64,000 nt of DNA from Alcanivorax sp. Its GTDB lineage: Bacteria > Pseudomonadota > Gammaproteobacteria > Pseudomonadales > Alcanivoracaceae. The stretch spans positions 1-64,000 of the forward strand of contig JAKUPL010000015.1 in NCBI GenBank assembly GCA_022449455.1, given 5' to 3'. The notes beneath the pieces are model-generated. The model searched no databases, was not told where the DNA came from, and saw only the letters and a list, made by a program, of their open reading frames with translations. A program made the translations under genes and the position numbers. Shown here in pieces: positions 14,714 through 29,628 of this stretch; the first letter of the stretch is position 1; every line of letters begins with the position of its first letter.

Positions 14714-15769
14714 TCAGAACTTGAAGCGCGCGCCCACGCCGTAGGTGGAGCCGGTGCCCACATCGTCGATGTCGTCGTGCAGGTACATGGCGTACAGGTC
14801 GAGCTGGCTGTTCACCACGTAATCGTAGCCCGCCGCCCAGGTGTCGCGCTGGTAGTCCACGGCGCCGCTGAAGTCGGAGTTGGCGTAGGACGCCAGCACG
14901 TTGCCCGGGCCCACCGGGACCGCCACGCCGGCCTGCCAGGTGTCGGTGTCCACGTCACCGGCGGTGGTGTCGGTTTCCAGGGTCATGTACTGGCCGTACA
15001 GCGTGGCCACGCCGAAGTTGTAGGACAGCCCGGCCATGGCCGCGTCCTGATCGGTGGCGCCCGGAATGTTGCCGCGCTCGCCGGCGCCGCCACCGTTGTC
15101 CAGGGTGCCCTCGCGCACGCGCATCGCCGATACCGTCGCCACCAGGCCGCCCTGGCGATAGATCAGGTTACCACCGACCTTGTTTTCGCCGCTTTCGCCT
15201 TCTTCCTCGCCGAAGGCGTACACCAGGTTGGCCTTGAGGCCGCCGACGCTCGGCGTGGTGTAGTTGATGCTGTCGTTCCAGGTGGTGTCGCCCATCACCG
15301 CGCCGCCGTTACCACCGTTGTAGGTGTGCAGCATCATCGGTGAGAAGGCGAAGGAGTCTTTCACCGAATTGGTGATTACCATGGGAATGAAGAACGGCGA
15401 CTTGGTGCGGCCCGCTTTCAGTTCACCCCAGGTCTGGCTGGACGCGCCGATGTAGGCGTTGCGGCCGAAGAACTCGTCGCCGTTGTAGCGACCGTCTTCG
15501 CCGGTGTCCGGACGCAGAAACATCTCGGCCACGCCGAAAAAGGTCACGTCATCGTTCACCTTGTAATCGACGCGGGCGCCCAGGAAGGAGGTGGACATGC
15601 CACCGCCGGCCAGTTGCGCGGTGTTGTCCTGGTCCGCCGGTTTCTCGATGCTGCCGGCCCACAGGTCCAGCAGGCCGTAGAACTTGGCCTGGGGCTGGGC
15701 GGCGCTGGCGGCGCCGGACAGCATCAGGCCGCCGGCCAGAATGGCGAGAGTGTTGTTGTTCAGTTTCAT
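14714..15769 (-). CDS. Outer-membrane porin (Gram-negative trimeric type)
   Basis: 351 residues. Signal peptide about 1-23 (cleavage after ASAA), then alternating beta-strand sequence rich in Gly, Asp and aromatic residues, ending in a C-terminal Phe (GARFKF) as required for outer-membrane assembly. Sequence style (FYGLLDLWAG, GELKAGRTKSPFFIP) resembles OmpC/PorB-type 16-strand porins. AAGGGAA precedes the start. It lies downstream of the LigI-like operon on the same strand but is separated by a terminator and a 369-bp AT-rich region, so it probably has its own promoter. It may admit the small acids handled by the neighbouring pathway. Confidence 0.88.
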   Translation of the reverse strand: MKLNNNTLAILAGGLMLSGAASAAQPQAKFYGLLDLWAGSIEKPADQDNTAQLAGGGMSTSFLGARVDYKVNDDVTFFGVAEMFLRPDTGEDGRYNGDEFFGRNAYIGASSQTWGELKAGRTKSPFFIPMVITNSVKDSFAFSPMMLHTYNGGNGGAVMGDTTWNDSINYTTPSVGGLKANLVYAFGEEEGESGENKVGGNLIYRQGGLVATVSAMRVREGTLDNGGGAGERGNIPGATDQDAAMAGLSYNFGVATLYGQYMTLETDTTAGDVDTDTWQAGVAVPVGPGNVLASYANSDFSGAVDYQRDTWAAGYDYVVNSQLDLYAMYLHDDIDDVGTGSTYGVGARFKF

Positions 15770-16080
15770 TGCTGATTCCCTTTTTCAAGCACAAACCGCC
15801 CCGGGACGCCGAGGAGGGCGTCTTTTCAGATCGTTGCTGGAAACGGATTCGGGCGGATTCGTTATCGGATTATTGTGTGGATGACTCCTGATTGTTTTCT
15901 TCGGAGGCGCACTAAAAGTACGCACCCTTGCAGGTTACTTTGTCGTTATGGTGCATCCGGGGCAATGGTAAAAAAAAGAAAAAGTCCACGATATAGACGA
16001 TAAGAGTTCATGAAATTGAACGACCGGAAAAGCCTGAAAAATAAGGTATATGCCGAGATTGGAGTGAATGTTAAGGGCAC
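15770..16080. other. AT-rich intergenic region upstream of the porin
   Basis: No coding frame can be supported here. The segment is markedly richer in A/T than its surroundings, contains a long A-run near 15971-15978, and a near-repeat GCGCAC/CGCAC around 15907-15925. It must hold the porin promoter on the minus strand; I could not identify -35/-10 elements with confidence. Confidence 0.4.
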
Positions 16081-16110
16081 AAAAAAAGGCCCGGTTAAAA
16101 ATGCCGGGCC
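16081..16110 (-). terminator. Rho-independent terminator of the leftward TctC/RidA/hydrolase operon
   Basis: On the minus strand a perfect 7-bp stem GGCCCGG / CCGGGCC with a 9-nt loop is followed by seven T. It starts 28 bp after the stop of the LigI-like gene. This is a textbook intrinsic terminator. Confidence 0.88.
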
Positions 16111-16138
16111 GAGGTTTGGGAGAGATTGAAACAGCGCG

Positions 16139-17014
16139 TCAGTCGTCGTAACCGAACAGTTTGGCCGGGTTGTCGACAAGAATTTTCTGCCGTTCGCCGG
16201 CGTCCGGCGCGTAGCGGTAAAGCAGTTCCAGCAGCTCGGCGTCGTTGGGCGGCGGTGATTTGGAAAGCGGGTGCGGCCAGTCGCTGGCCCACACCACCCG
16301 ATCCGGCGCCGCGTCGATGTAGGCACGGGCAATCGGCAGCACATCGTTCCAGGGATGACCCTGGGTGGAGATCTTTTCGCCCAGTGACAGCATCACCCAG
16401 AAGTTGCCCTTCTTGAGCAGCTCAATGGTTTTTTGCACGTTCGGATCGTCCACGCCCAGGTTGGCGTCGGCGCGGCCCAGGTGGTCGATCAGCACCGGGA
16501 TATCCAGGTTTTGGTACAGCTCCACGCTGCCCAGGATGCCGTCCTTTTCCGGCTGGATTTTCACGTACCAGCCGAGTTCCTTGAGCCGGTCGGCGGCACG
16601 CTGGAATTCCCGGGGCGACAGGCCCACGCCCAGTTCCTTGCGGAAGGTAAAGCGGGCGCCGCGCACACCGGCGTCGTGCAGTTCCTCGATGTAGCCGTCG
16701 TCGCGCTCCTTGAGCGCGATGGCGTTGGCGCAGCCCCGATAGTCCGGGCCGGCTTTTTTCAGCGCGTCCACCACCACGCTGTGGTCGGAGCCATAGGTGG
16801 TGGCCTGGACGATCACGCCACGCTCGATGCCCAGCGCACGGTGCATTTTCAACGCCGCGTCGATGGTGGCGGACGGCATCTTGAACGGTGCTTCCGGCCG
16901 CGGCGGATACACCGCCGGGTCGCCGAACACGTGGAACTGCGCGTCGCAGGTACGGGCCGGCGGCGCTTCCACCGGGGCCCGCGGGTCCGGGTTGAATGGG
17001 TAATACTCAGGCAT
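16139..17014 (-). CDS. Amidohydrolase-2 family hydrolase, LigI-like (2-pyrone-4,6-dicarboxylate lactonase type)
   Basis: 291 residues from the ATG at 17014, chosen because AGGAG lies 6 bp upstream; a second ATG at 17029 lacks such a site. The protein follows the LigI/COG3618 pattern: FHVFGDP near the N-terminus, ERGVIVQATTYGSD, GVRGARFTFRK, LIDHLGRAD, VVWASDWPHP and LVDNPAKLFG at the end. LigI has a D-x-H-x-H motif on strand 1; here it reads DAQFH, so the first histidine is glutamine. Metal-independent lactone hydrolysis is the family role closest in sequence. It is the last gene of the leftward operon with a RidA protein and a TctC binding protein. Exact substrate unknown. Confidence 0.75.
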   Translation of the reverse strand: MPEYYPFNPDPRAPVEAPPARTCDAQFHVFGDPAVYPPRPEAPFKMPSATIDAALKMHRALGIERGVIVQATTYGSDHSVVVDALKKAGPDYRGCANAIALKERDDGYIEELHDAGVRGARFTFRKELGVGLSPREFQRAADRLKELGWYVKIQPEKDGILGSVELYQNLDIPVLIDHLGRADANLGVDDPNVQKTIELLKKGNFWVMLSLGEKISTQGHPWNDVLPIARAYIDAAPDRVVWASDWPHPLSKSPPPNDAELLELLYRYAPDAGERQKILVDNPAKLFGYDD

Positions 17015-17071
17015 GGTGGCTCCTGCCATGGAAAATCAGAGGGCCGCGCGGGCGGCCCGTATCAAGGACTG

Positions 17072-17467
17072 TCAGCCCCGGGCGCCGGCGATCACCGCCA
17101 GCACGTCACACTGAATCAGGAATTTGGATTCCACCGGGTTCTGAATGGCATGCCGCGCCGGGCGGGAATCCGCATCGGGAAACATGCTCAGCCATTGCTC
17201 GTTGAGCACGTCGCGCTGGGAGCGGTCCTGCATCCAGACGGTCATCTTCAGGATGTCGTCGGTGCTGCCGCCGGCGGCCTCGACGATATTGCGCACGTGC
17301 TGGAACATGAACGCGCACTGCGCCTTCAGATCGGCGCCCAGTTCTCCGGTGGCCGGGTCGGTGCCGTTGATCACGCCGGTGGCCATCAGATCCCCGATCC
17401 GGCTGGCCGCCGGGATCGGGTTCTGGTGGGAGAAGCCGGCGCTGTGAACGCTCTGGCGTCGTGACAT
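17072..17467 (-). CDS. RidA-family protein (YjgF/YER057c/UK114)
   Basis: 131 residues. The RidA fold is recognised from GDLMATGVINGTDPATGEL, the central AQCAFMFQHVRNIVEAAGGS and the C-terminal arginine region RPARHAI that carries the family's catalytic-type Arg. AAGGA lies 8 bp before the ATG at 17467. In catabolic clusters such proteins hydrolyse enamine/imine intermediates or act as dedicated deaminases. Between a LigI-like hydrolase and a TTT binding protein it probably removes nitrogen or a reactive intermediate in the same pathway; this is inference from position. It is not close to the AmnD protein at 910-1356. Confidence 0.85.
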   Translation of the reverse strand: MSRRQSVHSAGFSHQNPIPAASRIGDLMATGVINGTDPATGELGADLKAQCAFMFQHVRNIVEAAGGSTDDILKMTVWMQDRSQRDVLNEQWLSMFPDADSRPARHAIQNPVESKFLIQCDVLAVIAGARG

Positions 17468-17496
17468 TGTTGCGGTCCTTCTGCGTTGAAAGCGGC

Positions 17497-18462
17497 TTAA
17501 CGGTGGATGTTGGCGCCGCGGATCAGGGTGCCCCAGCGGTCGTATTCCTTCTGCAGGAAGGACTGGAAGTCGGGCACGCTCATGGCGCGCGCGTCGGCGC
17601 CGGCGGTCTCGAACTTCTCCACCACCGCGGGATCGGCGAGGATTTTTTCCAGCGCCTGGTTCAGTTCGTTGACGATCTTGTCCGGGGTGCCGGCGGGGGC
17701 GAACAGGCCGGTGAAGGTCTCGGACACCGCGTCTTCGTAGCCCAGCTCTTTCAGGGTGGGCACGTCGGGCAGGGCATCCAGGCGCTCCGGAGAGGTCACC
17801 GCCAGGGCGGTCAGTTTGCCGCTGGTCACGTACTGCTTGGCCACGGTGAGCTGATCGAAGTTGAAGTCCACGCGGCCGCCCAGCAGGTCGGTGGTGGCCG
17901 GGGCATTGCCCTTGTAGTGCACGGTCAGCCACTCGGTTTTGAGCAGGCGCTGCATCATTTCGCTGATCAGATGGTTCTGGGTGCCGGCGCCGGGGGAGGC
18001 CATGGCCAGCTCACCGGGATGCTCCTGGGCGTACTTGAACAGTTGTTCGGCGCTGTCCATGCCCAGTTCCGGGTTGGCCTGCAGCACCAGCGGCACGAAC
18101 GAGATCGAGCCGATCGGCGCGAAATCGTCTTTCCAGTAGTAGTTGTCCTTGCGGAACAGCATGGGGCTGAACAGCACCGGGCCGTTGGGGGCCACGAACA
18201 GGGTGTAGCCGTCCGCGTCGGACTTGACCACGTAGGAGGCGGCGATCATGCCACCGGCGCCGGGGCGGTTCTCCACCACGAACGGCTGTCCGAATTCCTT
18301 TTCCAAGCCGTCGGCCACGATGCGCGCGGCCAGGTCCACGTTGCCGCCGGGCGGGTAGGGCACCACCAGGTGAACGGGTTTGGAGGGCCAGTTCGCGGCC
18401 TGAGCGCCCACGCCCAGGCAGAGCAGCATCAACAGAGTGGTCAAACGTTGGAATAAACGCAT
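17497..18462 (-). CDS. tctC: Tripartite tricarboxylate transporter substrate-binding protein (TctC/Bug family)
   Basis: 321 residues with a signal peptide (cleavage near AQAAN, residue 23). The mature start WPSKPVHLVVPYPPGGNVDLAARIV, the block VVENRPGAGGMIAASYV and the conserved FAPAGTPDKIVNELNQAL are diagnostic of Bug/TctC proteins, which bind carboxylates in the periplasm. AGGAAGGAG precedes the ATG. The membrane subunits TctB and TctA are encoded at 23377-25336 on the other arm of this divergent locus. It is the first gene of the leftward operon, directly beside the two operator-like repeats. Confidence 0.92.
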   Translation of the reverse strand: MRLFQRLTTLLMLLCLGVGAQAANWPSKPVHLVVPYPPGGNVDLAARIVADGLEKEFGQPFVVENRPGAGGMIAASYVVKSDADGYTLFVAPNGPVLFSPMLFRKDNYYWKDDFAPIGSISFVPLVLQANPELGMDSAEQLFKYAQEHPGELAMASPGAGTQNHLISEMMQRLLKTEWLTVHYKGNAPATTDLLGGRVDFNFDQLTVAKQYVTSGKLTALAVTSPERLDALPDVPTLKELGYEDAVSETFTGLFAPAGTPDKIVNELNQALEKILADPAVVEKFETAGADARAMSVPDFQSFLQKEYDRWGTLIRGANIHR

Positions 18463-18584
18463 GGTTTTTATTCTCCTTCCTGTGCTCGGCGTCCAAAGGC
18501 GGCGCCGGCTTCAAGTGGTTGTGCGGGTGAAGAGGTACTTTCCTGAATCCGGCGCCGGGGCGGCAACCGCTAAATCCCGCGAAG

Positions 18585-18599
18585 GTCCACATAATGGAC
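18585..18599. promoter_or_regulatory. Candidate IclR operator, left copy
   Basis: GTCCA-CATAA-TGGAC, a perfect 5-bp inverted repeat with a 5-bp AT-rich centre, 123 bp upstream of the tctC start. The same format recurs at 18691-18705. The 15-bp size and AT-rich centre resemble known IclR-family sites. The centres are 106 bp apart, close to ten helical turns, so looping is possible. Confidence 0.6.
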
Positions 18600-18690
18600 G
18601 CCGGCGTTCATCACCCGATGACTGTGCCACGCAGGATACTCGGAAATGCGCTTATACCGGCCCATGGCGAAGACCGGTTATGATTAAAAC

Positions 18691-18705
18691 GTCCATATGA
18701 TGGAC
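18691..18705. promoter_or_regulatory. Candidate IclR operator, right copy
   Basis: GTCCA-TATGA-TGGAC; with one more base pair on each side of the centre the dyad reads GTCCAT-ATG-ATGGAC. It lies 93 bp upstream of the flavin reductase start. The 336-bp gap 18463-18798 around both copies holds no gene and must contain the two divergent promoters. Confidence 0.6.
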
Positions 18706-18798
18706 ACTATGGTCAGCGCCGTGTTGATTCCCCACAGGCTCCCTCTTAGCTTTCCTGCTACCCCATCGAGCGGCCGGTCGACTGCCAGGAGAATAAAT

Positions 18799-19428
18799 AT
18801 GCAAATCGACACTGATTCCCTGTCGCCTCAGGAATGCTACCGCCTGATCAGCGGCATCGTGGTTCCCAGGCCGATTGCCTGGATCACCACCCAGTCTCCG
18901 GAGGGCGTGGTCAATCTGGCGCCTTTCAGTTGCTTTACCTTCGTATCCAACAGCCCGCTGATGGTGGGCATCAATATCGGCCGCAAGGCCGGTCGCGAGA
19001 AGGATACCGCCCGCAATATCCGTGCCCTGGACCAGTTCGTGGTCAACATCGCCGACTGGACCATGGTCGAGGACGTGCACGCCAGCGCCGTGGAATACGA
19101 CGCCCATGAAAGCGAGGTGGAAAATCTCGGCCTGACGGCGCTGCCCTCGGTGACGGTTACCCCGCCGCGTTTGGAGAAGGCGCCGATCAGCCTGGAGTGC
19201 AAGCTGCACAGCGTCACCGGTTACGGCAACACCGGCGCCGAGTTCTTCGTCGGCCAGGTCACCCGCATCCACGTCAGCGACCGCCTCTACGAGGACGGCC
19301 GCATCGACACCCGTGCCCTGCAACCGGTGTGCCGCATCGCCGGCGCCAACTACGCCACCCTGGGCGAGATCCGCCAGCTTAAACCCGTGGCGCAGACGCC
19401 CAAGAGCATCATCGAGCCGGGATCATGA
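18799..19428 (+). CDS. Flavin reductase-like FMN-binding protein
   Basis: 209 residues. The split-barrel flavin reductase-like domain is seen in SGIVVPRPIAWITTQSPEG, NLAPFSCFTFVSNSPLM and RNIRALDQFVVNI. The start at 18799 has CAGGAG 8 bp upstream; the frame is open further upstream but that would translate through the operator region. Members supply FMNH2/FADH2 to two-component monooxygenases or act as flavoenzymes themselves. No oxygenase gene is present in this locus, which leaves its partner open. The stop overlaps the next gene by 4 bp (ATGA), making this the leader gene of the rightward operon. Confidence 0.85.
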   Translation: MQIDTDSLSPQECYRLISGIVVPRPIAWITTQSPEGVVNLAPFSCFTFVSNSPLMVGINIGRKAGREKDTARNIRALDQFVVNIADWTMVEDVHASAVEYDAHESEVENLGLTALPSVTVTPPRLEKAPISLECKLHSVTGYGNTGAEFFVGQVTRIHVSDRLYEDGRIDTRALQPVCRIAGANYATLGEIRQLKPVAQTPKSIIEPGS

Positions 19429-20273
19429 GACGCGACGACGGCCTGCCACCGGACACCGACGTGGTGGAACCGCCCCGTGCGGAGGCCGGCGAGGGCGGCA
19501 AGACCCTGGGCGCGCGCAGCATCCGGCGGGCGGTGGCGATCCTGCGTATTCTCGCCACCGGCCAGGAGCACGGTGTGCGGATCACCGACATCGTCCACCA
19601 GACCGGCCTCAACCGGCCCACGGTGCACCGCATTCTGCGCGTGCTGATCGAGGAAGAGGCGGTGGAGCAGGATCCCAACACCCGCCGCTACATGGTCGGG
19701 CCGGAAGTGTCCCTGCTGGGCCTGTCCCGGGCCGCCCGGGTGCCGGTGAAATCGGTGGCCGAACCCTACCTGCGGCACATTGCCGAGCAGTGTGGCGACA
19801 GCGTGTTCCTGACCATCCGGAGCGGCTTCGATTCCATCTGCGTGGACCGCAAGACCGGCAATTACCCGGTCAAGGTGCTGTCCATCGAGGTGGGCGCGCG
19901 CCGGCCGCTGGGTGTCAGCGTGTCCGGTCTGGTGCTGCTGGCCTTCGCCGAGCCGGATGACAGCGAGGAAGTGCTGCTGGGCAATGAGCAACGCCTGGTG
20001 AGCCATAGCCTGAAGCTGGACGAAGTGCGCCGCCGTATTACTGAAACCCGTTCCCTGGGCTACGCCTACAGCGAGGTGGGCGTGGTGCCCGGCACCCGCG
20101 CGCTGGCGCTGCCGGTGTTCGACGCCGACCAGCAGCTGGTGGCGTCGGTGGCGGTGTCGGCCATGGCCGACCGCCTGAGCCCGGAGCGCCTGGCCATTCT
20201 GGTCCCGCTGATTCGTCGCCAGACCGAACTGATTGCCCAGCGGCTCAGTGAAATTCATACCCGCCGCCGTTAA
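19425..20273 (+). CDS. IclR-family transcriptional regulator of the hpa/TTT locus
   Basis: 282 residues. After a 25-residue leader, a winged helix-turn-helix (about 28-85; GVRITDIVHQTGLNRPTVHR) and an IclR effector domain (about 100-275) are present. It is co-transcribed within the operon (ATGA overlap with the gene before, 17 bp before hpaG1), so autoregulation is likely. The two GTCCA-N5-TGGAC repeats in the divergent promoter region are the best candidates for its binding sites. The effector is probably the imported dicarboxylate or a pathway intermediate (inference). Confidence 0.9.
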   Translation: MRRDDGLPPDTDVVEPPRAEAGEGGKTLGARSIRRAVAILRILATGQEHGVRITDIVHQTGLNRPTVHRILRVLIEEEAVEQDPNTRRYMVGPEVSLLGLSRAARVPVKSVAEPYLRHIAEQCGDSVFLTIRSGFDSICVDRKTGNYPVKVLSIEVGARRPLGVSVSGLVLLAFAEPDDSEEVLLGNEQRLVSHSLKLDEVRRRITETRSLGYAYSEVGVVPGTRALALPVFDADQQLVASVAVSAMADRLSPERLAILVPLIRRQTELIAQRLSEIHTRRR

Positions 20274-20290
20274 CGACTTCAGGAGAAACC

Positions 20291-20977
20291 ATGACATCCG
20301 TGACCCTGCGCCCCGGAGGGCGCTTGCTGAGCGGCGCCGTTTACGGCTGCCTGCTCAACGTGCAGGACGAACTGGACCGGCTCGGTGACGCCATCAATGA
20401 GGCGCCCTACAACGGCGCGCCCACCGGCCCGGTGATGTACGTAAAAACCCCGAACACCCAGGTGGCCGATGGCACCCCGGTGGTGTTGCCCGCCGACGTG
20501 GACCAGGTGCGCGTCGGGGCCACCCTGGGCGTGGTGATCAAGGACACCCTGACCCGCGCCAGCGCCGATCAGGCCCGCGCCGCCATCGCCGGCTATACGC
20601 TGGTCAACGACCTCACCGTGCCCCACGACAGCCTGTTCCGGCAGCCGCTCAAGCAGAAGTGCCGGGACGGTTTCTGCCCGATCGGCCCGTGCCTGGTGGA
20701 CGCCGCCGACCTGCCGGACCCGGACGGTCTTACCGTGCGTGCCCTGGTCAATGGTGAATGCCGTCAGCAATGGAGCCTGGCCGAACTGGTGCGCCCGGTG
20801 GCCACGCTGCTGGCCGACATCTCCGATTTCACCAGCCTTTATCCCGGCGATCTGATCCTGGTGGGCATGTCCCCGGACGCGCCGCTGGCCGGCGCCGGTG
20901 ACACCGTGGCGGTGGAAATCGACGGTTTGGGTCGTCTTGAGAATCCGCTGATCAGCGAAGGGGAGAGCGCCCGATGA
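20291..20977 (+). CDS. hpaG1: HpaG N-terminal-type decarboxylase/isomerase subunit
   Basis: 228 residues of the fumarylacetoacetase C-terminal fold. It corresponds to the N-terminal half of the E. coli HpaG fusion: the block KCRDGFCPIG is shared, as are AGYTLVNDLTVP and YPGDLILVG. In the homoprotocatechuate pathway HpaG decarboxylates 5-oxopent-3-ene-1,2,5-tricarboxylate and isomerises the product. Here the two halves are separate genes overlapping by 4 bp. CAGGAG precedes the ATG. This half has lost some of the metal-ligand glutamates typical of FAH enzymes (ATLGVVI instead of E-x-E), as in other N-terminal halves. Confidence 0.85.
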   Translation: MTSVTLRPGGRLLSGAVYGCLLNVQDELDRLGDAINEAPYNGAPTGPVMYVKTPNTQVADGTPVVLPADVDQVRVGATLGVVIKDTLTRASADQARAAIAGYTLVNDLTVPHDSLFRQPLKQKCRDGFCPIGPCLVDAADLPDPDGLTVRALVNGECRQQWSLAELVRPVATLLADISDFTSLYPGDLILVGMSPDAPLAGAGDTVAVEIDGLGRLENPLISEGESAR

Positions 20978-21720
20978 AACAAGCACGTATCGCCTTCGAG
21001 GGTCGCGTTCAGCAGGCCTGGGAAGACAACGGCAAGGTGCGGCTGGCGGACGGCCGCCGCCTGGACGAAAGCGAAGTGACCTGGCTGCCGCCGGTGACCC
21101 CGGGCACGATTCTGGCTCTGGGGCTGAACTACGCCGACCACGCCGCCGAGATCGCCTCCCAGGCGCCGGAAGAACCGATGGTGTTCCTCAAGGGCGCCAA
21201 CACCCTGGTGGGCCACCGCGCCTTCACGCCGCGCCCCACCGACGCCACCAACATGCACTATGAGTGCGAGCTGGCCATCGTCATCGGCAAGCCGGCGCGC
21301 AACGTGGCCAAGGCGGATGCCTACGACTACATCGCCGGCTACACCGTGGCCAACGATTACGCCGTGCGCAATTACCTGGAAGGCTTCTACCGGCCCAACT
21401 TCCGCATCAAGAGCCGCGACAACTGCACGCCCATCGGCCCCTGGCTGGTGGACGCGGCGGACATCGCCGACCCGATGAACCTGCGGCTGACCACCCGCGT
21501 CAACGGCGAGACCACCCAGGAAGGGTCCACCAAGGACATGATTTTCGACGTGCCCTTCCTGATCGAATATTTCAGCGCCTTCATGACCCTGCAGCCGGGT
21601 GACGTGATCCTCACCGGCACCCCCAAGGGCACCGTCAACGTGATGCCCGGTGACGAGGTGGTCACCGAAATCGAAGGCGTGGGCGCGCTGCACAACACCA
21701 TTATCGAGAGGAAGGCCTGA
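20974..21720 (+). CDS. hpaG2: HpaG C-terminal-type isomerase/decarboxylase
   Basis: 248 residues. Strong similarity to the C-terminal half of Hpa[31 protein letters not shown] with the E-x-E metal ligands, [32 protein letters not shown] and the end [12 protein letters not shown]. It would catalyse decarboxylation/isomerisation to 2-oxohept-3-enedioate together with hpaG1. ATGA overlap upstream and a 1-bp TGATG overlap downstream indicate translational coupling of hpaG1-hpaG2-hpaH. Confidence 0.9.
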
Positions 21721-22523
21721 TGCTGGATGATGCCGCTATTCGTGACGCGGCGGAGCGGCTCGACCGCGCCGAACGCGAACGTACCCAGATCGACCATCTG
21801 ACCCTGCAGTACCCGGACATCGGCTTCCCCGAGGCCTACGCCATCCAGCGCCAGTGGGTGGACATGAAGGTGGCCCGTGGCCGCCGGGTGATGGGCCACA
21901 AGATTGGCCTCACGTCCCGGGCCATGCAGATGTCCGCGCGCATCGATGAGCCGGACTATGGTGTGCTGCTCGACGACATGTTCTTCGAGGACAACGCCGA
22001 GATCGAAGTGGACCGCTTTATCGTGCCGCGTCTGGAAGTGGAGCTGGCGTTCGTTCTGAAAGAGGACCTCAGTGGCCCGGATTGCACCGTGCTGGACGTG
22101 ATGCGCGCCACCGAATACGTGATCCCGGCACTGGAGATCATCGACGCCCGGGTGCGTCAGGTGGACCCGGCCAGCGGCGCGCCGCGCAAGGTGTTCGACA
22201 CCATTTCCGACAACGCCGCCAACGCCGGCGTGGTGCTGGGCGGGCGCACCATCCGCCCGTTCGACATCGACCTGCGCTGGAGCGCGGCGGTGTGCAGCCG
22301 CAACGGCCTGGTGGAAGAAACCGGCGTGGCCGCCGGGGTGCTCGGCCATCCCGCCAAGGGCATCGCCTGGCTGGCCAACAAGCTGGCCCCCCACGGTGTC
22401 ACCCTGAAAGCCGGCGAGATCGTGCTGGCCGGTTCCTTCACCCGTCCGGTGGCGGCGTCCGCCGGCGATACCTTCCACGTGGACTACGGCCCGCTCGGCG
22501 CGCTGGGTCTGCGCTTCGTCTGA
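21720..22523 (+). CDS. hpaH: 2-oxohept-3-ene-1,7-dioate hydratase
   Basis: 267 residues, closely following HpaH along its length: [47 protein letters not shown] (metal E-x-E), [20 protein letters not shown] and [13 protein letters not shown]. The enzyme hydrates 2-oxohept-3-enedioate to 4-hydroxy-2-oxoheptanedioate, the substrate of the aldolase encoded next. It is distinct from the related decarboxylase at 110-913, which shares the fold but not these blocks. Confidence 0.92.
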
Positions 22524-22534
22524 CAGGAGGCGTC

Positions 22535-23332
22535 ATGGATCTTCCGGTCAATACCTTCAAACAGGCGCTGCTCGAAGGCCGCACCCAGATCGGTCTGTGG
22601 TGCGCCCTGGCCGATGCCTACGGCACCGAGATCGGCGCCGCCGCCGGTTTCGACTGGCTGCTGATCGACGGTGAACACGGCCCCAACGATGTGCGTTCGA
22701 TCCTGGCGCAACTGCAGGCGGTGGCGCCGTACCCGACCCACCCGGTGGTGCGCCCGGTGAACGGTGACGCGGACACTCTGAAACCGCTGCTGGACGCCGG
22801 CGTGCAAACCCTGCTGGTGCCGATGGTGGAAAGCGCCGATCAGGCGCGGGCCATCGTCGAGGCCACCCGCTACCCGCCCCACGGGCGCCGGGGCGTGGGC
22901 GCCGGCCTGGCGCGGGCGTCGCGCTGGGGCCGGGTGCCGGATTACGTGCACCACTGCCACGAACAACTGTGCGTGCTGCTGCAGGTGGAAAGCCGTGCCG
23001 GCCTGGACAACCTGGATGAAATCGCCGCCGTGGACGGTGTCGACGGCGTGTTCATCGGCGCCGCCGATCTGGGCGCCGACCTGGGTTATCTGGGCCAGCC
23101 GGGCCACCCGCAGGTGAACGCGGCGGTGCTGGACGCCTTCCGGCGCATTCAGGCAGCGGGCAAGCCCGCCGGGGCGCTGACCGTTAACGAGGACCTGGCC
23201 CGCGAGCATCTCGATGCCGGCTGCCGGTTTCTCGCCGTGGGCGCCGACGCCGCTCTGCTGGCCCGCGCCACGGACGCGCTGTCGCGCCGCTTCAAGGACC
23301 ATTTGTCGCCGTCCCAGGCCGGCGGTTACTGA
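22535..23332 (+). CDS. hpaI: 4-hydroxy-2-oxoheptanedioate aldolase
   Basis: 265 residues, class II pyruvate aldolase of the HpcH/HpaI family. The blocks [43 protein letters not shown] and [16 protein letters not shown] contain the catalytic His/Arg and the Glu/Asp metal ligands. The product pair is pyruvate and succinate semialdehyde. CAGGAGG lies directly after the hpaH stop, 5 bp before the ATG. Strong overall similarity to E. coli HpaI. Confidence 0.92.
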
Positions 23333-23376
23333 CTCTATTCTCACAACGCGCGTTGCGCCTCGGAGGAGAATAATAA

Positions 23377-23820
23377 ATGGCACGTTCCATTAACTGGTTG
23401 CAGGTGGGCGCGGCGCTGCTGCTCGGCCTGCTTGGTCTCTACGTGATTGTCCAGGGTAGCGGCTACGACATCGGGTCGTTGCGCCGCATGGGCCCCGGCT
23501 TCTTCCCGGTCATGATCGGCTCGGTACTGGTGCTGTTCGCCGTGCTGCTGGTACTGGAAGTGTGGCATTCGGAGAAAGAGAAGGATTTCTGGATTCCGCG
23601 GCCCATTCTCACCATCACCGCCGGCTTCGTGGCCTTCGCCGCGTTGCTGGAACGGGCCGGGCTGGTGCCCGCCACGGTGGCGCTGGTGCTGCTGGTGTCG
23701 CTGGCGGAAAAACCGGTGCGGCCGGTGGCGGCGGTGGCCACCGCGGTGGGCCTGAGCGTGCTCGGCGTCCTGGTATTCATTTACGGCTTCGGCATTCCGG
23801 TGTCGGCGTTCGAGTGGTGA
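23377..23820 (+). CDS. tctB: Tripartite tricarboxylate transporter small membrane subunit (TctB)
   Basis: 147 residues with four membrane helices (about 8-27, 40-60, 78-98, 105-140). The segment RRMGPGFFPVMIGSVL between helices 1 and 2 is characteristic of TctB. CGGAGGAGAAT precedes the ATG. It forms the integral membrane unit with TctA, encoded 4 bp downstream; the binding protein TctC is on the opposite arm of the locus. Confidence 0.9.
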   Translation: MARSINWLQVGAALLLGLLGLYVIVQGSGYDIGSLRRMGPGFFPVMIGSVLVLFAVLLVLEVWHSEKEKDFWIPRPILTITAGFVAFAALLERAGLVPATVALVLLVSLAEKPVRPVAAVATAVGLSVLGVLVFIYGFGIPVSAFEW

Positions 23821-23824
23821 TCTG

Positions 23825-25336
23825 ATGGATATCCTTAATAACCTGGCGCTTGGCGCCGAGATCGCGTTTTCCTGGCAGGGCCTGCTGTTCTGTTTCGTGG
23901 GCGTGCTGGTGGGCACCTTCGTGGGCGTGCTGCCCGGCATCGGACCGCTGGCGGCCATCTCCCTGGCCCTGCCGATGACTTATTACCTGTCTCCGCCGAT
24001 CGCGTTGATCATGCTGGCCGGTATTTTCTACGGGGCCCAGTACGGCGGCTCCATCGCCGCCATTCTGCTCAACCTGCCGGGCACCGCCTCGGCGGCGGTG
24101 ACCTGTATCGACGGCAACCAGATGACCAAGCAGGGCCGCGCCGGCGTGGCCCTGTTCACCGCCGCCATCTCGTCGTTCTGCGGTGGCATCGTGGCGATCT
24201 TCATGGTGCTCGGGTTCACGCCCATGATCGCGTCCTTCGCCATGGACTTCGGCTCAATGGACTATTTCTCGATCATGCTGCTGGGCCTGGTGGCGGCGTC
24301 CACCCTGTCGGTGGGCTCGCCGCTCAAGGGCATGACCATGGTGATGCTGGGCATCGCCCTGGGCCTGGTGGGCACCGACGACACCTCCGGCACCGAGCGC
24401 TTTACCTTCGGCGTGCTGGCCTTGTCCGATGGCATCAGTCTGGTGGCCCTGGCCATGGGGCTGTTCGGGGTGGGGGAGATCCTCGCCAACCTGGGCCAGG
24501 AAAAGCGCGCCCCGCTCAAGGCCAGTGGCCTGACCTTCAAATCCATGCTGCCCAAGCGGCACGAATGGAGCGGCCTGTGGAAGACTATCCTGCGCGGTTC
24601 CGGTATCGGCGCCTTCGTCGGCGCGCTGCCTGGTTCCGGCCCGGCGATTGCCGCCTTCATGGCCTATGCGTCGGAAAAGAAACTGGCCAGGAACCCGGAG
24701 AAATTCGGCCAGGGTGAGCTGCGTGGCGTGGCCTCCCCGGAATCCGCCAACAACGCGGCGGTGCAGGCGGCGTTCATTCCGACCCTGAGCCTGGGCATTC
24801 CCGGCGACGCGGTGATGGCGGTGCTGCTGGGCGCCATGATCCTGCACGGCATCAGCCCCGGGCCGGAACTGGTGACCAGCAATCCGGAGATGTTCTGGGG
24901 CCTGGTGGTGAGCTTCGGCGTCGGCAACATCATGCTGCTGGTGCTGAATCTGCCGCTGATCCGGGTGTGGGTGCGCATGTTGTCGATTCCCTACCACGTG
25001 CTGTACCCGGCGATGCTGTTCTTTATCTGCATCGGTGTGTTCTCGGTGCGCTCCAGCGTGTTCGACGTCTACACCGCGCTGTTCTTCGGGGTGATCGGCT
25101 ACTTCCTGATTCGCCTGCGTTTCCCGGCGGCGCCGCTGCTGCTCGGCTTCATTCTCGGGCCGATGATGGAGGTGCACTTCCGCCGCGCGCTGCTGCTGTC
25201 CCGGGGCGATTACTGGACCTTCTTCGACAGTATTCCGAGTACCGTTTTTCTGATCCTCACCGCGCTGTTCCTGGTGCTGCCGCTGTGGGCCGCGTTCCGC
25301 AAGCGCACCGCGCGCACGGCCAACCTGGGAGATTGA
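23825..25336 (+). CDS. tctA: Tripartite tricarboxylate transporter large membrane subunit (TctA)
   Basis: 503 residues, about 12 membrane helices. The family signature GVLPGIGPLAAISLALPMTY near residue 35, the repeat-related GALPGSGPAIAAFMAY near 262 and SLGIPGDAVMAVLLGAM near 319 are all present. TctA uses the proton or sodium gradient to import carboxylates delivered by TctC. It follows tctB at 4 bp and precedes the aldehyde dehydrogenase at 6 bp, so the transporter is part of the same operon as hpaG1-G2-H-I. Confidence 0.93.
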   Translation: MDILNNLALGAEIAFSWQGLLFCFVGVLVGTFVGVLPGIGPLAAISLALPMTYYLSPPIALIMLAGIFYGAQYGGSIAAILLNLPGTASAAVTCIDGNQMTKQGRAGVALFTAAISSFCGGIVAIFMVLGFTPMIASFAMDFGSMDYFSIMLLGLVAASTLSVGSPLKGMTMVMLGIALGLVGTDDTSGTERFTFGVLALSDGISLVALAMGLFGVGEILANLGQEKRAPLKASGLTFKSMLPKRHEWSGLWKTILRGSGIGAFVGALPGSGPAIAAFMAYASEKKLARNPEKFGQGELRGVASPESANNAAVQAAFIPTLSLGIPGDAVMAVLLGAMILHGISPGPELVTSNPEMFWGLVVSFGVGNIMLLVLNLPLIRVWVRMLSIPYHVLYPAMLFFICIGVFSVRSSVFDVYTALFFGVIGYFLIRLRFPAAPLLLGFILGPMMEVHFRRALLLSRGDYWTFFDSIPSTVFLILTALFLVLPLWAAFRKRTARTANLGD

Positions 25337-25342
25337 TCGACC

Positions 25343-26773
25343 ATGCGTAACAACTTTATCGCCGGCGCCTGGACCCGGGGCGCCGGCGCCCGGCCCGACA
25401 TCAATCCGTCCGATACCCGCGATGTGATCGACGAGTACGCCCAGGCCGACGCCGACCAGACCCGCCAGGCCATCGCCGCCGCCCGGGCCGCCTTTCCGGC
25501 CTGGCGCCGGGGTGGCATTCAAGCCCGCGCCGAGGCGCTGGACTTCATCGGTCTGGAGCTGGCCGCCCGCAAGGACGAGCTAGGCCGGCTGCTGGCCCGG
25601 GAGGAGGGCAAGACCCTGCCCGAAGGCATCGCCGAGGTGAACCGGGCGGCGCAGATCTTCCGGTTCTTCGCCGGCGAAGTGCTGCGTCCCGGCGGCGAGA
25701 CCCTGCCGTCGGTGCGTCCGGGCATGGACGTGCACATCACCCGGGAACCGGTGGGCGTGGTGGGCATTATCACGCCCTGGAATTTCCCGATCGCGATCCC
25801 CGCCTGGAAGATCGCGCCGGCCTTGGCGTACGGCAACTGCGTGGTGTTCAAGCCCGCCGACCTGGTGCCCGGCTCGGCCTGGGCGCTGGCCGAGATCATC
25901 AGCCGCAGCGGTCTGCCGGAGGGCGTGTTCAACCTGACCATGGGGCGCGGCAGCGTGGTCGGCCAGACCCTGCTGGAAAGCCCCGACGTCAACGCCATCA
26001 CCTTCACGGGTTCCGGCACCACCGGTGCCCGGGTGATGGCCACCGCCGGCGCCCGCTTCGCCAAGCTGCAGCTGGAAATGGGCGGCAAGAACCCGCTGTT
26101 GGTGCTGGATGACGCCGAGCTGGAGCGGGCCGTGGAAGTGGCGGTGCAGGGCGCCTATTTCTCCACCGGTCAGCGTTGCACCGCCTCATCCCGGTTTATC
26201 GTCGAGAAGGGCATCTACGGCCGCTTCGTGGACGCCGTGCAACAGCGCCTGGCCGGCTTGAAGGTGGACCACGCCCTGGGCGAGGGCACCGACATCGGCC
26301 CGGTGGTGGACCAGAGCCAGCTCGACCAGGACCTGGGCTACGTGGACATCGGCCGCGAGGAAGGCGCCCGTCTGGTGTGCGGCGGCGAACGTCTGCAACG
26401 GGACAGCGACGGTTTCTACATGGCGCCGGCCCTGTTCGCCGACGCCGCACCGGACATGCGCATCGCCCGGGAGGAAATCTTCGGCCCGGTGGCCTGCGCG
26501 ATTCCGGCGGACGATTACGAGCACGCCCTGGCGTTGGCCAACGACACCGAGTTCGGCCTGTCGGCGGGCATCTGCACCTCGTCCCTGAAACACGCCACTC
26601 ATTTCCGCCACCACGCGGAGGCCGGCATGGTGATGGTCAACACCCCCACCGCCGGCGTCGACTTCCACGTGCCCTTCGGCGGGCGCAAGGGCTCCAGCTA
26701 CGGCTCCCGGGAGCAGGGCCGTTACGCCGCCGAGTTCTTTACCACGGTGAAAACCGCCTACGTGGCGCCCTGA
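25343..26773 (+). CDS. Aldehyde dehydrogenase (semialdehyde/ketoglutarate-semialdehyde type)
   Basis: 476 residues. NAD(P)-binding and catalytic motifs of the ALDH superfamily are intact: TPWNFPIAIPAWKIAPALA, FTGSGTTG, catalytic Glu in LEMGGKNP and catalytic Cys in GQRCTASSR. The last two resemble alpha-ketoglutarate-semialdehyde and related semialdehyde dehydrogenases more than the HpaE-type 5-carboxymethyl-2-hydroxymuconate semialdehyde dehydrogenase. It is last in the operon, so oxidation of the succinate semialdehyde released by the aldolase is the simplest role (inference). Confidence 0.88.
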   Translation: MRNNFIAGAWTRGAGARPDINPSDTRDVIDEYAQADADQTRQAIAAARAAFPAWRRGGIQARAEALDFIGLELAARKDELGRLLAREEGKTLPEGIAEVNRAAQIFRFFAGEVLRPGGETLPSVRPGMDVHITREPVGVVGIITPWNFPIAIPAWKIAPALAYGNCVVFKPADLVPGSAWALAEIISRSGLPEGVFNLTMGRGSVVGQTLLESPDVNAITFTGSGTTGARVMATAGARFAKLQLEMGGKNPLLVLDDAELERAVEVAVQGAYFSTGQRCTASSRFIVEKGIYGRFVDAVQQRLAGLKVDHALGEGTDIGPVVDQSQLDQDLGYVDIGREEGARLVCGGERLQRDSDGFYMAPALFADAAPDMRIAREEIFGPVACAIPADDYEHALALANDTEFGLSAGICTSSLKHATHFRHHAEAGMVMVNTPTAGVDFHVPFGGRKGSSYGSREQGRYAAEFFTTVKTAYVAP

Positions 26774-26865
26774 GCCGCCACCGGCTTTCCCCGGGGGGCT
26801 TCGGCGGCGCGGCGGTAGATGGTAAGCTGCCGTTCCCGCCCCGAAGCCCCCAAGGAACGCACGGC

Positions 26866-27492
26866 ATGGACGACCGCAGGACCTTCACGGTGTGCTCCGC
26901 GATTCTGCTGGTGGTGATGGCGGCGCTGGCGGTGGCGCCGGTGGAACGGGAAACCTGGCTGATGGAAAACGCCGTGGTGGCCCTGTTCCTGGCGGCCCTG
27001 TGGGGCACGCGCCGGTGGTTCCGGTTTTCCGCGGGCAGCTATGGATGGATCACCCTGTTCCTGGTGCTCCACGAAATCGGCGCCCACTACACCTATTCGC
27101 GGGTGCCCTACGACGCCTGGGCCCGGCAATGGGCGGGCTTCAGCATCGACCAGCTGTTCGGCTGGCAGCGCAATCAATACGACCGTCTGCTGCATCTGCT
27201 CTATGGCGTGCTGCTGGTGCTGCCGCTGCGTGAGCTGTGCCGGCGCGGCGTCGGCCTGCGCGGCGCCTGGGCCGGCGTCTTCGCGTTTTCCCTGATCCTG
27301 GCCTCGTCGATGATCTATGAGCTGATCGAATGGGGCGCGGCGGTGACCTTCGGCGACGGCAGCGACGCCTTCCTGGGCACCCAGGGGGACCCCTGGGACG
27401 CCCAGAAGGACATGGCCCTGGCGCTGCTCGGCGGCTTGATCGCCCTGGCCTTGGCGGCGCCCCTGCGTGCCCTGCGGGCGCGCCGACGCTGA
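26866..27492 (+). CDS. DUF2238/YjdF-type inner membrane protein
   Basis: 208 residues with about six membrane helices. The conserved features of the DUF2238 family are visible: LVLHEIGAHYTYSRVPYD, RNQYDRLLHLLYGVLL, IYELIEWGAAVTFGDGSDAF and LGTQGDPWDAQKDM. The acidic and His residues in these loops suggest metal or lipid binding but no function is established. The ATG at 26866 has AAGGAA 11 bp upstream. The gene stands alone after the catabolic operon. Confidence 0.8.
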   Translation: MDDRRTFTVCSAILLVVMAALAVAPVERETWLMENAVVALFLAALWGTRRWFRFSAGSYGWITLFLVLHEIGAHYTYSRVPYDAWARQWAGFSIDQLFGWQRNQYDRLLHLLYGVLLVLPLRELCRRGVGLRGAWAGVFAFSLILASSMIYELIEWGAAVTFGDGSDAFLGTQGDPWDAQKDMALALLGGLIALALAAPLRALRARRR

Positions 27493-27948: not shown

Positions 27949-29628
27949 ATGGACAGTATTGCCGCCCCCGCCACCCTGGACGACCCGCTCTATTACCTGC
28001 GCAACTTCGAGGCTGTGCTGGACTGGGTGAGCGAGTGTCACGGGGACCTGCTCGACGCCGCCGAACGGGCCTTCCTGAACGGCATGGCGGCGCTGCCGGT
28101 GGCGCCCAAGGCGCTGCTGACGCGCATGGTGATGCGCAGCGGCGAGCTGTTCCGCGCCGACAAACTCCGTTATCCGGAAATCGGTCCGGCCACGCCGGCG
28201 CTGACGGCGCTGGAAGCGGTGGGTTGGGTACGCCGGGACGGCGACCTGACCCTGGAAGAACTGTTCCGCCTCTACACCAAAGCGGAGCTGGGCCGCGCCC
28301 TGGCTCCCCGCCTGGCCGCCGCCGGCCTCGACCCTCGCGGTCGCAAGGCGGACTGGCTGGCGGCCCTGGGGGAACCGGCGCCGGCGCCCCGCCCGCTGCC
28401 GGCCTGGGACCCGGGCGGCCACCTGCCGGCGGCCTGGCGGCTCACCGTGATGCCGCTGTGCGAACGCCTGCGGCTGATGTTCTTCGGCAATCTCTACCAG
28501 GACTGGCGCGAGTTCGTGCTCACCGAGCTGGGCACCTTCCGCTACGAGCGGGTGCGCCTGGACGCCGGCACACGGCCCTACCGTCACCGTGCCGACCTGG
28601 ACGCCTGGCTGGCGGTGCACGCCTGCCGGGAGCGGTTCGAGGCCGGTGAACCGGTGGCGGCGGTGGTCGCCGATCTGCCCGCCGACGACACCGGCAACCC
28701 CTGGGTGGAGGAGCGCCGCCACAAGCTGCGCTACCAGTTGGCCCGGCAGTGGGAACGGGAAGATCAACTGCAACGGGCCGAAGCTCTGTACGCGCACTGC
28801 CAGCACCCGGACGCCCGCGCCCGGCGGCTGCGGGTGCTGGAGCGCCGCGGCGAATACCGGGCGGCCCTGGCCCTGGCCGACGAGGCCGCCGCCCGCCCGG
28901 AAAGCGAAGCGGAACGCCAGGCCCTGGACCGGTTGCGGCCCCGCCTGCACCGCAAGCTCGGGCTCGCCCGGCCGACCCGGGCGCCGGCCCCGACCACGCC
29001 GGAGTGGTCGCTGACCTTGCCGCTCTTGAATCTGATGCGCGCCGGTCGCGTGGAGGGGGCGGTGGCCGAGCATTTCCATGACGACCGGGCGCCGGTGTTC
29101 TACGTGGAGAATACCCTGCTCACCGGCCTGTTCGGTCTGTTGTGCTGGGAGGCGCTGTTCGCGCCCCTGCCGGGGGCTTTTTTCCACCCGTTCCAGAGCG
29201 GCCCGGCGGACCTGCACCGGCCGGATTTCGTGGCCCGGCGCCGGGACCTGTTCGCCGCCGCCTTCGCCGATCTGGAAAGCGGCCGCCACCGGCGGCGTAT
29301 TCTCGATACCTTCCAGCGCAAGCAGGGCGTGCAATCGCCGCTGGTGCAGTGGGGCACGCTGTCCGAGCCGCTGCTGGAGCTGGCCCTGGAGTGCATTCCC
29401 GCCGCTCATCTGGCCCGCCATGGCGAACGCCTGCTGCGTGACATCAAGGCCAACCGCGCCGGCCTGCCGGACCTGATTCAGTTTTTTCCGGAGCGCGGCG
29501 ACTACCGGATGATCGAGGTGAAGGGCCCCGGTGACCGGCTGCAGGATAACCAGCGCCGCTGGCTGCGCTACTTCGCCGAGCAGGGCATGCCGGCGGTGGT
29601 CTGCAAGGTGGCCTGGGAGGCGGGGTGA
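27949..29628 (+). CDS. FAN1-type structure-specific nuclease (VRR-NUC domain)
   Basis: 559 residues. The C-terminal VRR-NUC domain carries the PD-(D/E)xK active site: GLPDLIQFF (D508), then IEVKGPGDRLQDNQRRWL (E523, K525). The middle part (about 240-340) is rich in Ala/Arg/Leu helices like the TPR region of FAN1, and the N-terminal 150 residues resemble the SAP-containing domain. Bacterial FAN1 homologues cut 5' flaps and unhook interstrand crosslinks. The stop overlaps the helicase start by 4 bp (GTGA), so both act in one repair process. Confidence 0.88.
   Translation: MDSIAAPATLDDPLYYLRNFEAVLDWVSECHGDLLDAAERAFLNGMAALPVAPKALLTRMVMRSGELFRADKLRYPEIGPATPALTALEAVGWVRRDGDLTLEELFRLYTKAELGRALAPRLAAAGLDPRGRKADWLAALGEPAPAPRPLPAWDPGGHLPAAWRLTVMPLCERLRLMFFGNLYQDWREFVLTELGTFRYERVRLDAGTRPYRHRADLDAWLAVHACRERFEAGEPVAAVVADLPADDTGNPWVEERRHKLRYQLARQWEREDQLQRAEALYAHCQHPDARARRLRVLERRGEYRAALALADEAAARPESEAERQALDRLRPRLHRKLGLARPTRAPAPTTPEWSLTLPLLNLMRAGRVEGAVAEHFHDDRAPVFYVENTLLTGLFGLLCWEALFAPLPGAFFHPFQSGPADLHRPDFVARRRDLFAAAFADLESGRHRRRILDTFQRKQGVQSPLVQWGTLSEPLLELALECIPAAHLARHGERLLRDIKANRAGLPDLIQFFPERGDYRMIEVKGPGDRLQDNQRRWLRYFAEQGMPAVVCKVAWEAG

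Follow-up and report, generated by a model that had tools for sequence, protein, structure and literature searches.

How does a bacterium come to hold the late enzymes of homoprotocatechuate degradation in a compact locus with no enzyme for opening the aromatic ring? The question is raised by positions 1 to 64,000 of contig JAKUPL010000015.1 from Alcanivorax sp. (assembly GCA_022449455.1), a stretch of 64,000 nucleotides referred to here as the window, in which two divergent gene arms separated by 336 bp occupy positions 16139-26773. An earlier sequence-only reading treated this as a ten-gene locus and left the IclR-family regulator out of its reasoning; the count is twelve. The answer that we regard as fairly probable is a self-contained module, which would import a cyclic carboxylate, probably a lactone, open it hydrolytically and feed the product into the homoprotocatechuate lower pathway without a ring-cleavage dioxygenase of its own.

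The plus-strand arm consists of a flavin reductase-like FMN protein (FlRed), the IclR regulator, HpaG1, HpaG2, HpaH, HpaI, TctB, TctA and an aldehyde dehydrogenase (ALDH), with successive junctions of -4, 17, -4, -1, 11, 44, 4 and 6 bp. The minus-strand arm holds TctC, RidA and a LigI-like hydrolase with gaps of 29 and 42 bp (Table 1). Gene identities rely on family scans with NCBIfam, which has curated cut-offs, and Pfam. HpaG2, HpaH and HpaI exceed their NCBIfam cut-offs and HpaG1 falls 5.65 bits short, while TctA, TctB and TctC all score above the Pfam gathering score, so that the subunit set of a tripartite tricarboxylate transporter is present. All genes named by the sequence-only reading (hpaG1, hpaG2, hpaH, hpaI, tctB, tctA, ALDH, tctC, RidA and LigI-like) lie where it had placed them. 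A scan of positions 15700-27000 found no sigma-70-like promoter.

Table 1. Genes and predicted regulator sites of the divergent locus, in window coordinates.
Feature	Position	Strand	Evidence
LigI-like Amidohydro_2 hydrolase (COG3618 type), candidate ring-opening lactonase	16139..17029	-	PF04909 140.5 bits
RidA-family protein	17072..17467	-	PF01042 44.2 bits
TctC, substrate-binding protein of the importer	17497..18462	-	PF03401 220.1 bits
Operator copy 1, predicted IclR site	18585..18599	none	GTCCACATAATGGAC
Operator copy 2, predicted IclR site	18691..18705	none	GTCCATATGATGGAC
Flavin reductase-like FMN protein (FlRed)	18799..19428	+	PF01613 71.3 bits
IclR-family regulator	19425..20273	+	TIGR02431 105.9 bits (below cut-off); several IclR-type models
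HpaG1, HpaG N-terminal type isomerase/decarboxylase	20291..20977	+	TIGR02305 223.0 bits, cut-off 228.65
HpaG2, HpaG C-terminal type isomerase/decarboxylase	20974..21720	+	TIGR02303 383.6 bits, cut-off 276.4
HpaH, 2-oxo-hept-4-ene-1,7-dioate hydratase	21720..22523	+	TIGR02312 450.5 bits, cut-off 351.5; trees
HpaI, 4-hydroxy-2-oxoheptanedioate aldolase	22535..23332	+	TIGR02311 385.8 bits, cut-off 368.8
TctB, small membrane subunit	23377..23820	+	PF07331 68.0 bits
TctA, large membrane subunit	23825..25336	+	PF01970 525.6 bits
Aldehyde dehydrogenase (ALDH)	25343..26773	+	best match: KGSA dehydrogenase model

The locus is conserved as a unit well beyond its own genus. A scan of GTDB genomes with the LigI-like protein yields 228 relatives, of which the best 80, mostly from Bradyrhizobium at ~66%, are kept; four plasmid loci (L158-L161) and fifteen further loci (L174-L188) complete a set of 99. 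The sampling thus follows similarity of the LigI-like protein, flank lengths vary, and a gene is scored as present when a tblastn match at E 1e-6 lies within 9.5 kb. On this basis RidA is found in 99 loci, IclR in 96, FAH/HpaG2 in 95, FlRed in 94, HpaH in 93 and TctC in 92, and HpaI in 23, TctA in 10, TctB in 9 and any ALDH in 9. The survey of conservation that the sequence-only reading had proposed reveals that the whole core (IclR, FlRed, TctC, RidA, LigI-like, FAH/HpaG2 and HpaH) stays together in 75 of the 82 loci whose flanks reach 6 kb or more in both directions, and that it recurs across alpha-, beta- and gammaproteobacteria. The exceptions are L058 (no FlRed), L062 and L094 (no HpaH match), L112 and L125 (no TctC) and two loci of a second type, L160 and L161. 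A close LigI-like gene occurs in 13 of 349 genomes of family f110, taken as Burkholderiaceae; all 13 loci harbor the seven core genes and 11 also HpaI. The twelve-gene form is found in four Alloalcanivorax loci, and Arhodomonas and Billgrantia have eleven genes, the ALDH being absent. No title or abstract start describing the module was found in the part of the literature covered.

A shared palindrome marks the control regions of these loci. The region between the arms of the window locus contains two copies of GTCCA-N5-TGGAC (at 18585 and 18691); the window as a whole has two, compared with an expectation of 0.11, and no shuffle out of 100 gave as many. Control regions, defined as -350 to +30 of the TctC, FlRed or IclR starts, can be set in 98 of the 100 loci made up of the window locus and its 99 relatives; the strict form is present in 81 of the 98 and at least TCCA-N5-TGGA in 89. 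Inside the control regions 99 sites fall within 89,786 bp, compared with 28 loose and 2 strict sites in 1,878,427 bp outside. The sites occur in alpha, beta and gamma groups, and their counts are not independent events because many loci are closely related. A refined pattern, GTCCAYNWNRTGGAC, is found in the host genome at two places only, both at this locus. Two further exact matches, in genomes G901 (contig 24) and G420 (contig 12), lie inside predicted genes without matches to module proteins. The palindrome is the predicted binding site of the IclR protein. A survey of IclR regulons names COG3618 as a frequent associated member (PMC8222616), and its supplement may already list the regulon of this module.

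The classical enzymes that precede and open the lower pathway are, with one weak exception, absent from the module loci. Queries for HpaE, HpaF and HpaD were taken from four classical clusters each and cover both dioxygenase types. HpaE is found in none of the 99 module loci and in 12 of 13 classical rows, and HpaF in none of the 99 and in 11 of 13. An HpaD-like match appears once, weakly, among the 99 loci (L119), the control being 12 of 13 classical rows. None of the twelve window genes encodes HpaD, HpaE, HpaF or HpaR. The sequence-only reading was therefore right that HpaD and HpaE are not here, and its phrase of a complete homoprotocatechuate-type lower pathway says too much, since HpaF is missing both among the twelve genes and in the loci of relatives. 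Of 25 genomes with adjoining LigI-like and RidA genes (15 covered with wide flanks and the others, the window excepted, as 3.9-kb pieces), 13 have an HpaE above cut-off and 12 do not; the latter include G454 from the window's genus, G202 and 10 of the 13 from f110. The module thus occurs without the classical upper pathway.

The ancestry of the lower-pathway enzymes provides a link to the chemistry. In the HpaH tree, which was repeated without the distant row L201, sequences from the window, Alloalcanivorax, Billgrantia and Arhodomonas form one clade among classical HpaH, apart from the module rows of alpha- and betaproteobacteria. The starred set that includes the window HpaH has 7 module rows and 7 classical ones, and a single origin of all 31 module HpaH rows is rejected (p-AU 0.0029). 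On at least two occasions the enzyme was taken up from homoprotocatechuate clusters. Modules of the alpha and beta groups encode a single FAH protein where the window has HpaG1 and HpaG2. This FAH and that of five Bradyrhizobium-type HpaE clusters share a starred group in the FAH/HpaG2 tree, and the clade of the window HpaG2 lies outside it, in another starred set together with six classical HpaG2 rows and the rows of G1; long branches are present in this tree. Two lineages have built the same module around different homoprotocatechuate-type enzymes. Such repeated recruitment ties the chemistry of the module to the homoprotocatechuate pathway, and we read it as evidence that the module works through the same lower-pathway intermediates.

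The entry point is suggested by the LigI-like hydrolase. The protein matches the 2-pyrone-4,6-dicarboxylate (PDC) hydrolase 4d8l over residues 11-293 (E 3.3e-42), and its H33, R126, H183, R186 and D250, invariant in 100 of 100 family rows, correspond to H33, R124, H180, R183 and D248 of LigI. For LigI, reportedly the subject of Hobbs 2012, we take D248, H180 and H33 to be catalytic residues and H31, Y156 and R217 to be further active-site residues. The last three are replaced by Q31, Q159 and K219 in all 100 rows. Since the catalytic set is kept and the presumed substrate contacts are changed, the protein is presumably a related hydrolase with a different substrate. Among NCBIfam models only the 4-sulfomuconolactone hydrolase model NF042924 matches it, at 202.2 bits against a cut-off of 500 (control L209, 607.2), and it is 39.7% identical to the Novosphingobium 4-sulfomuconolactone hydrolase, which has H, H and R where the module family has Q31, Q159 and K219. 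Characterised relatives of the enzyme are lactone enzymes. The suggestion of the sequence-only reading that a non-classical substrate is imported and then opened by the LigI-like protein is the best-supported view, and PDC itself, which it had offered as a candidate, is unlikely given the three replacements throughout the family. For homarine, also considered, the literature searched gave nothing that fits.

The proposed route would begin with import of a cyclic carboxylate by TctABC. The LigI-like enzyme would then use water, not oxygen, to open the ring, which is probably a lactone to judge from the characterised relatives. RidA may act directly on the product, either as a keto-enol or imine tautomerase replacing HpaF, which the absence of HpaF throughout suggests, or as an enamine deaminase, which its conserved R105 allows. 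HpaG1 and HpaG2, or the single FAH elsewhere, would isomerise and/or decarboxylate this compound to 2-oxohept-4-ene-1,7-dioate. HpaH would hydrate the latter, HpaI would cleave the hydrate to pyruvate and succinic semialdehyde, and the ALDH would oxidise the semialdehyde that HpaI releases. The IclR protein would control both arms through the GTCCA-N5-TGGAC palindromes. The nearest solved chain to TctC is the terephthalate-binding protein 8hka (E 4.5e-56), with BugD close behind (1.6e-55), a weak hint of a planar di-acid as ligand. Locus L176 carries a true succinic semialdehyde dehydrogenase (SSADH; 662.3 bits, cut-off 646.35) and a second HpaI-like gene beside the module, which supports the end product.

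RidA is the most constant partner of the hydrolase and bears on the strongest alternative. The two genes adjoin in 99 of 99 loci, within 150 bp in 97 and with a largest gap of 193 bp, and no RidA gene lies in flanks of up to 1.5 kb around 23 LigI-like paralogues of 34-38% identity (L021-L023, L026, L041 and L140-L157). This adjacency, together with R105 in 99 of 99 rows, a residue which we take to have a role in imine deaminases, could mean that the substrate contains nitrogen. The flavin protein would then reduce a nitro group or the ring of a lactam, pyridone or amino-lactone, the LigI-like enzyme would hydrolyse the ring to an enamine, and RidA would free ammonia before HpaG, HpaH and HpaI act. 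The second-best solved relative of FlRed is a 2-nitrobenzoate nitroreductase, and a dihydroorotate dehydrogenase-like enzyme and an aminotransferase occur in the second-type locus L160, both in keeping with such chemistry. However, the relatives of the LigI-like protein are lactone enzymes, the two that it matched being PDC hydrolase and 4-sulfomuconolactone hydrolase. Moreover, the position of E120, presumably the acid of RidA imine deaminases, corresponds by eye to D121 in an alignment to PH0854 and is D in 86, S in 10, V in 2 and N in 1 of the 99 rows. The nitrogen-containing substrate is a doubtful proposal.

FlRed itself finds its nearest solved chains in 3bpk (component B of nitrilotriacetate monooxygenase) and then 4z85 (the nitroreductase). 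A partner oxygenase is absent from the twelve genes, as the sequence-only reading had observed, and in the 13 f110 loci the spacing from IclR to the last module gene is too tight for one, except for an unassigned 0.8-kb gap in L179. An oxygenase hidden between FlRed and FAH in L117 and L125 was considered and rejected, the extra gene there being an MFS permease; L117 has TctC and L125 lacks it, and the L117 permease is nearest to an aromatic-acid symporter model, below its cut-off. Reading frames of similar look, judged by appearance only, lie between FlRed and FAH in L112 and L079. No common neighbour of FlRed on plasmids was found in four of 38 records. On an Aminobacter plasmid (L205:5235-9609), a 50% FlRed relative has an HpaB-like oxygenase in its vicinity, along with a deacylase and a polysaccharide deacetylase.

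A planar pyrone is a more specific and, as stated, rather unlikely form of the hydrolytic route. In this form, 3-(carboxymethyl)-2-pyrone-6-carboxylate or a close relative, arising for example from stizolobinic acid or from stalled homoprotocatechuate cleavage, would be opened by the LigI-like enzyme to 5-carboxymethyl-2-hydroxymuconate, with RidA as the tautomerase in place of HpaF. If true, this would be an undescribed pathway, giving the homoprotocatechuate lower enzymes a further chemical entry independent of oxygen, HpaD and HpaE, and it would give a RidA-family protein the work of an isomerase.

An ordinary split or duplicated 4-hydroxyphenylacetate pathway, in which the locus merely adds lower enzymes for products made by HpaD and HpaE elsewhere, is very unlikely. 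The host assembly (4.22 Mb in 70 contigs) has Alloalcanivorax as its nearest named genomes, and the LigI-like gene of A. marinus NMRL4 is 99% identical to that of the window. The search for hpaD and hpaE homologues that the sequence-only reading had recommended finds both on contig C9: a single HpaE above cut-off (736.7 bits) and an adjoining LigB-type dioxygenase (HpaD). To this extent its alternative of an upper pathway elsewhere holds, and HpaG2, HpaH and HpaI of the window do pass equivalog cut-offs. However, C9 contains a complete classical set of its own, with hpaG1, hpaG2, hpaE, hpaD, hpaF, hpaH, hpaI, SSADH (684.9 bits, cut-off 646.35) and a MarR gene. Its products are only 44% (G1), 59% (G2), 69% (H) and 61% (I) identical to those of the window. 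The regulators differ (IclR against MarR), and the matching operators that the sequence-only reading had looked to as the mark of a split pathway do not appear, the refined pattern having no other exact match in the genome. The 12 genomes without HpaE further oppose this explanation. A recent duplication of the host's own hpa cluster is ruled out by the same identities and by the position of the window HpaH in the Billgrantia and Arhodomonas clade. The host genome thus carries two lower pathways, and that of the window is neither one part of a split pathway nor a recently made copy.

The ALDH scores below the cut-offs of all 25 models listed, including HpaE (428.4 against 638.35), SSADH (TIGR01780, 348.3 against 646.35) and its best match, alpha-ketoglutaric semialdehyde (KGSA) dehydrogenase (NF042993, 520.5 against 770). 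The view of the sequence-only reading that it is of semialdehyde type rather than HpaE is thus upheld on the second point and left short of the SSADH cut-off on the first. The least credible explanation, a sugar-acid pathway with the hydrolase as aldonolactonase or lactone isomerase, FAH and HpaI acting on keto-deoxy sugar acids and the ALDH yielding 2-oxoglutarate, draws on this KGSA match, on a 93.8-bit match of the hydrolase to chain 4mup (which we take to be galactarolactone isomerase) and on the sugar-acid enzymes known among FAH and HpaI families, and it is opposed by an HpaH that, in the window as in L159, scores above the curated hydratase cut-off, by the placing of HpaH, with more than one origin, among those of homoprotocatechuate clusters, and by the lack of any sugar-acid dehydratase or dehydrogenase among the twelve genes.

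Several observations weigh against the hydrolytic module as proposed. Its last steps are the least constant: just 23 of the 99 loci have HpaI nearby, the window ALDH scores under the SSADH cut-off with KGSA dehydrogenase as its best match, and of 30 module loci compared only 6, including 4 from Alloalcanivorax, have an ALDH with 68% identity or more. Such relatives lie directly after HpaH in L179 (71%) and on the opposite strand near the module in L186 (68%). The HpaI tree is compatible with repeated recruitment, but its starred branches force only one change and not separate origins. The flavin reductase is left without a step in the route. Nine of the 98 control regions, both second-type loci included, lack even a loose site, and in most of the 25 genomes the refined pattern is not commoner than its reversed control (2 against 3 in the host), the control being the more frequent in several of the other 24, so it is the location of the operator and not its number that is telling. 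Locus L119, a 3.7-kb contig from an alphaproteobacterial metagenome-assembled genome (MAG), carries a glyoxalase-fold, extradiol-dioxygenase-like gene with 25% identity to Bradyrhizobium HpaD (E 5.7e-10); it lies at 1336-2310 on the minus strand, opposite and convergent to the LigI-like gene and right after it, a possible hint at an aromatic precursor. The best 80 of the 228 relatives are weighted towards Bradyrhizobium, and L187, whose contig has the same length, probably duplicates L053. Finally, the second-type loci hold LigI-like and RidA genes without HpaH, FAH, FlRed and TctC, and hence the first product need not always take the proposed route.

These second-type loci lie on plasmids of Roseateles (L160:6745-15312) and Rhizobium leguminosarum (L161:6607-15279). 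Both combine the LigI-like and RidA genes with an HpaI-like aldolase and an SSADH-like ALDH that scores under the SSADH cut-off, a combination that likewise supports the proposed end product. Further genes in L160 encode a dihydroorotate dehydrogenase-like protein, DUF6282, a cupin, an aminotransferase and an ABC importer.

The module resembles four known systems in part. It shares the families and order of HpaG1, HpaG2, HpaH and HpaI with the hpa/hpc pathway, whose clusters in L203 and on C9 place SSADH after hpaI. In contrast to hpa/hpc, it lacks HpaD, HpaE, HpaF and HpaR, adds TctABC, the LigI-like protein, RidA, FlRed and IclR, and is present in genomes without HpaE. With LigI of the protocatechuate 4,5-cleavage pathway it shares a family over nearly the full length and the five conserved residues, while differing at Q31, Q159 and K219. 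The neighbours of 4-sulfomuconolactone hydrolase, from the 4-sulfocatechol pathway, include an adenylosuccinate lyase-family gene, maleylacetate reductase and PcaGH. The same logic with other protein families is seen in the end steps of lumichrome (vitamin B2) degradation, in which LumW, LumY and LumX act as pyrone hydrolase, dienedioate hydratase and retro-aldolase, and the cluster includes a putative FAH gene, lumV (PMC12746152). That system has a cobalt-dependent hydrolase, a cupin hydratase, a pyrone made by a catechol dioxygenase, and acetoacetate and pyruvate as products (PMC12746152), all of which differ from the present proposal. The cupin gene of L160 also stands next to the aldolase, which is no more than a lead.

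The locus represents a catabolic module that is conserved among proteobacteria of sea and soil and that carries its own regulator. The palindrome, the Q31/Q159/K219 signature and the link to the lower pathway make the search for this substrate testable with few proteins, namely TctC, the LigI-like enzyme and RidA. Naming it would give one subgroup of the lactonase family a function and might show a RidA protein at work in catabolism. The locus also serves as a warning that HpaG, HpaH and HpaI alone do not justify annotation of such loci as 4-hydroxyphenylacetate degradation.

A few neighbouring features complete the description. In L058 (10150-16559), from a Rhodospirillales MAG, the frames that come after the LigI-like gene resemble, by eye, NADH:flavin oxidoreductase, aldehyde dehydrogenase, phosphotransbutyrylase and butyrate kinase. 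Outside the window locus, positions 27949-31931 (+) contain overlapping reading frames of 559 and 768 amino acids that by appearance encode a VRR-NUC-like nuclease and a DinG-like helicase. On the LigI side the module adjoins a Porin_4 porin (14714-15769, -), which is present in 4 of 4 full-flank Alloalcanivorax loci (L049-L052) and has no match in Arhodomonas L053 or Billgrantia L054. A second extradiol-type cluster in the host genome, on contig C13 (1221-4484; locus L015), comprises two LigB-family genes, an aldehyde dehydrogenase, and ABC permease-like and amidohydrolase-like reading frames, and a nearby porin-like gene is 52% identical to that of the window.

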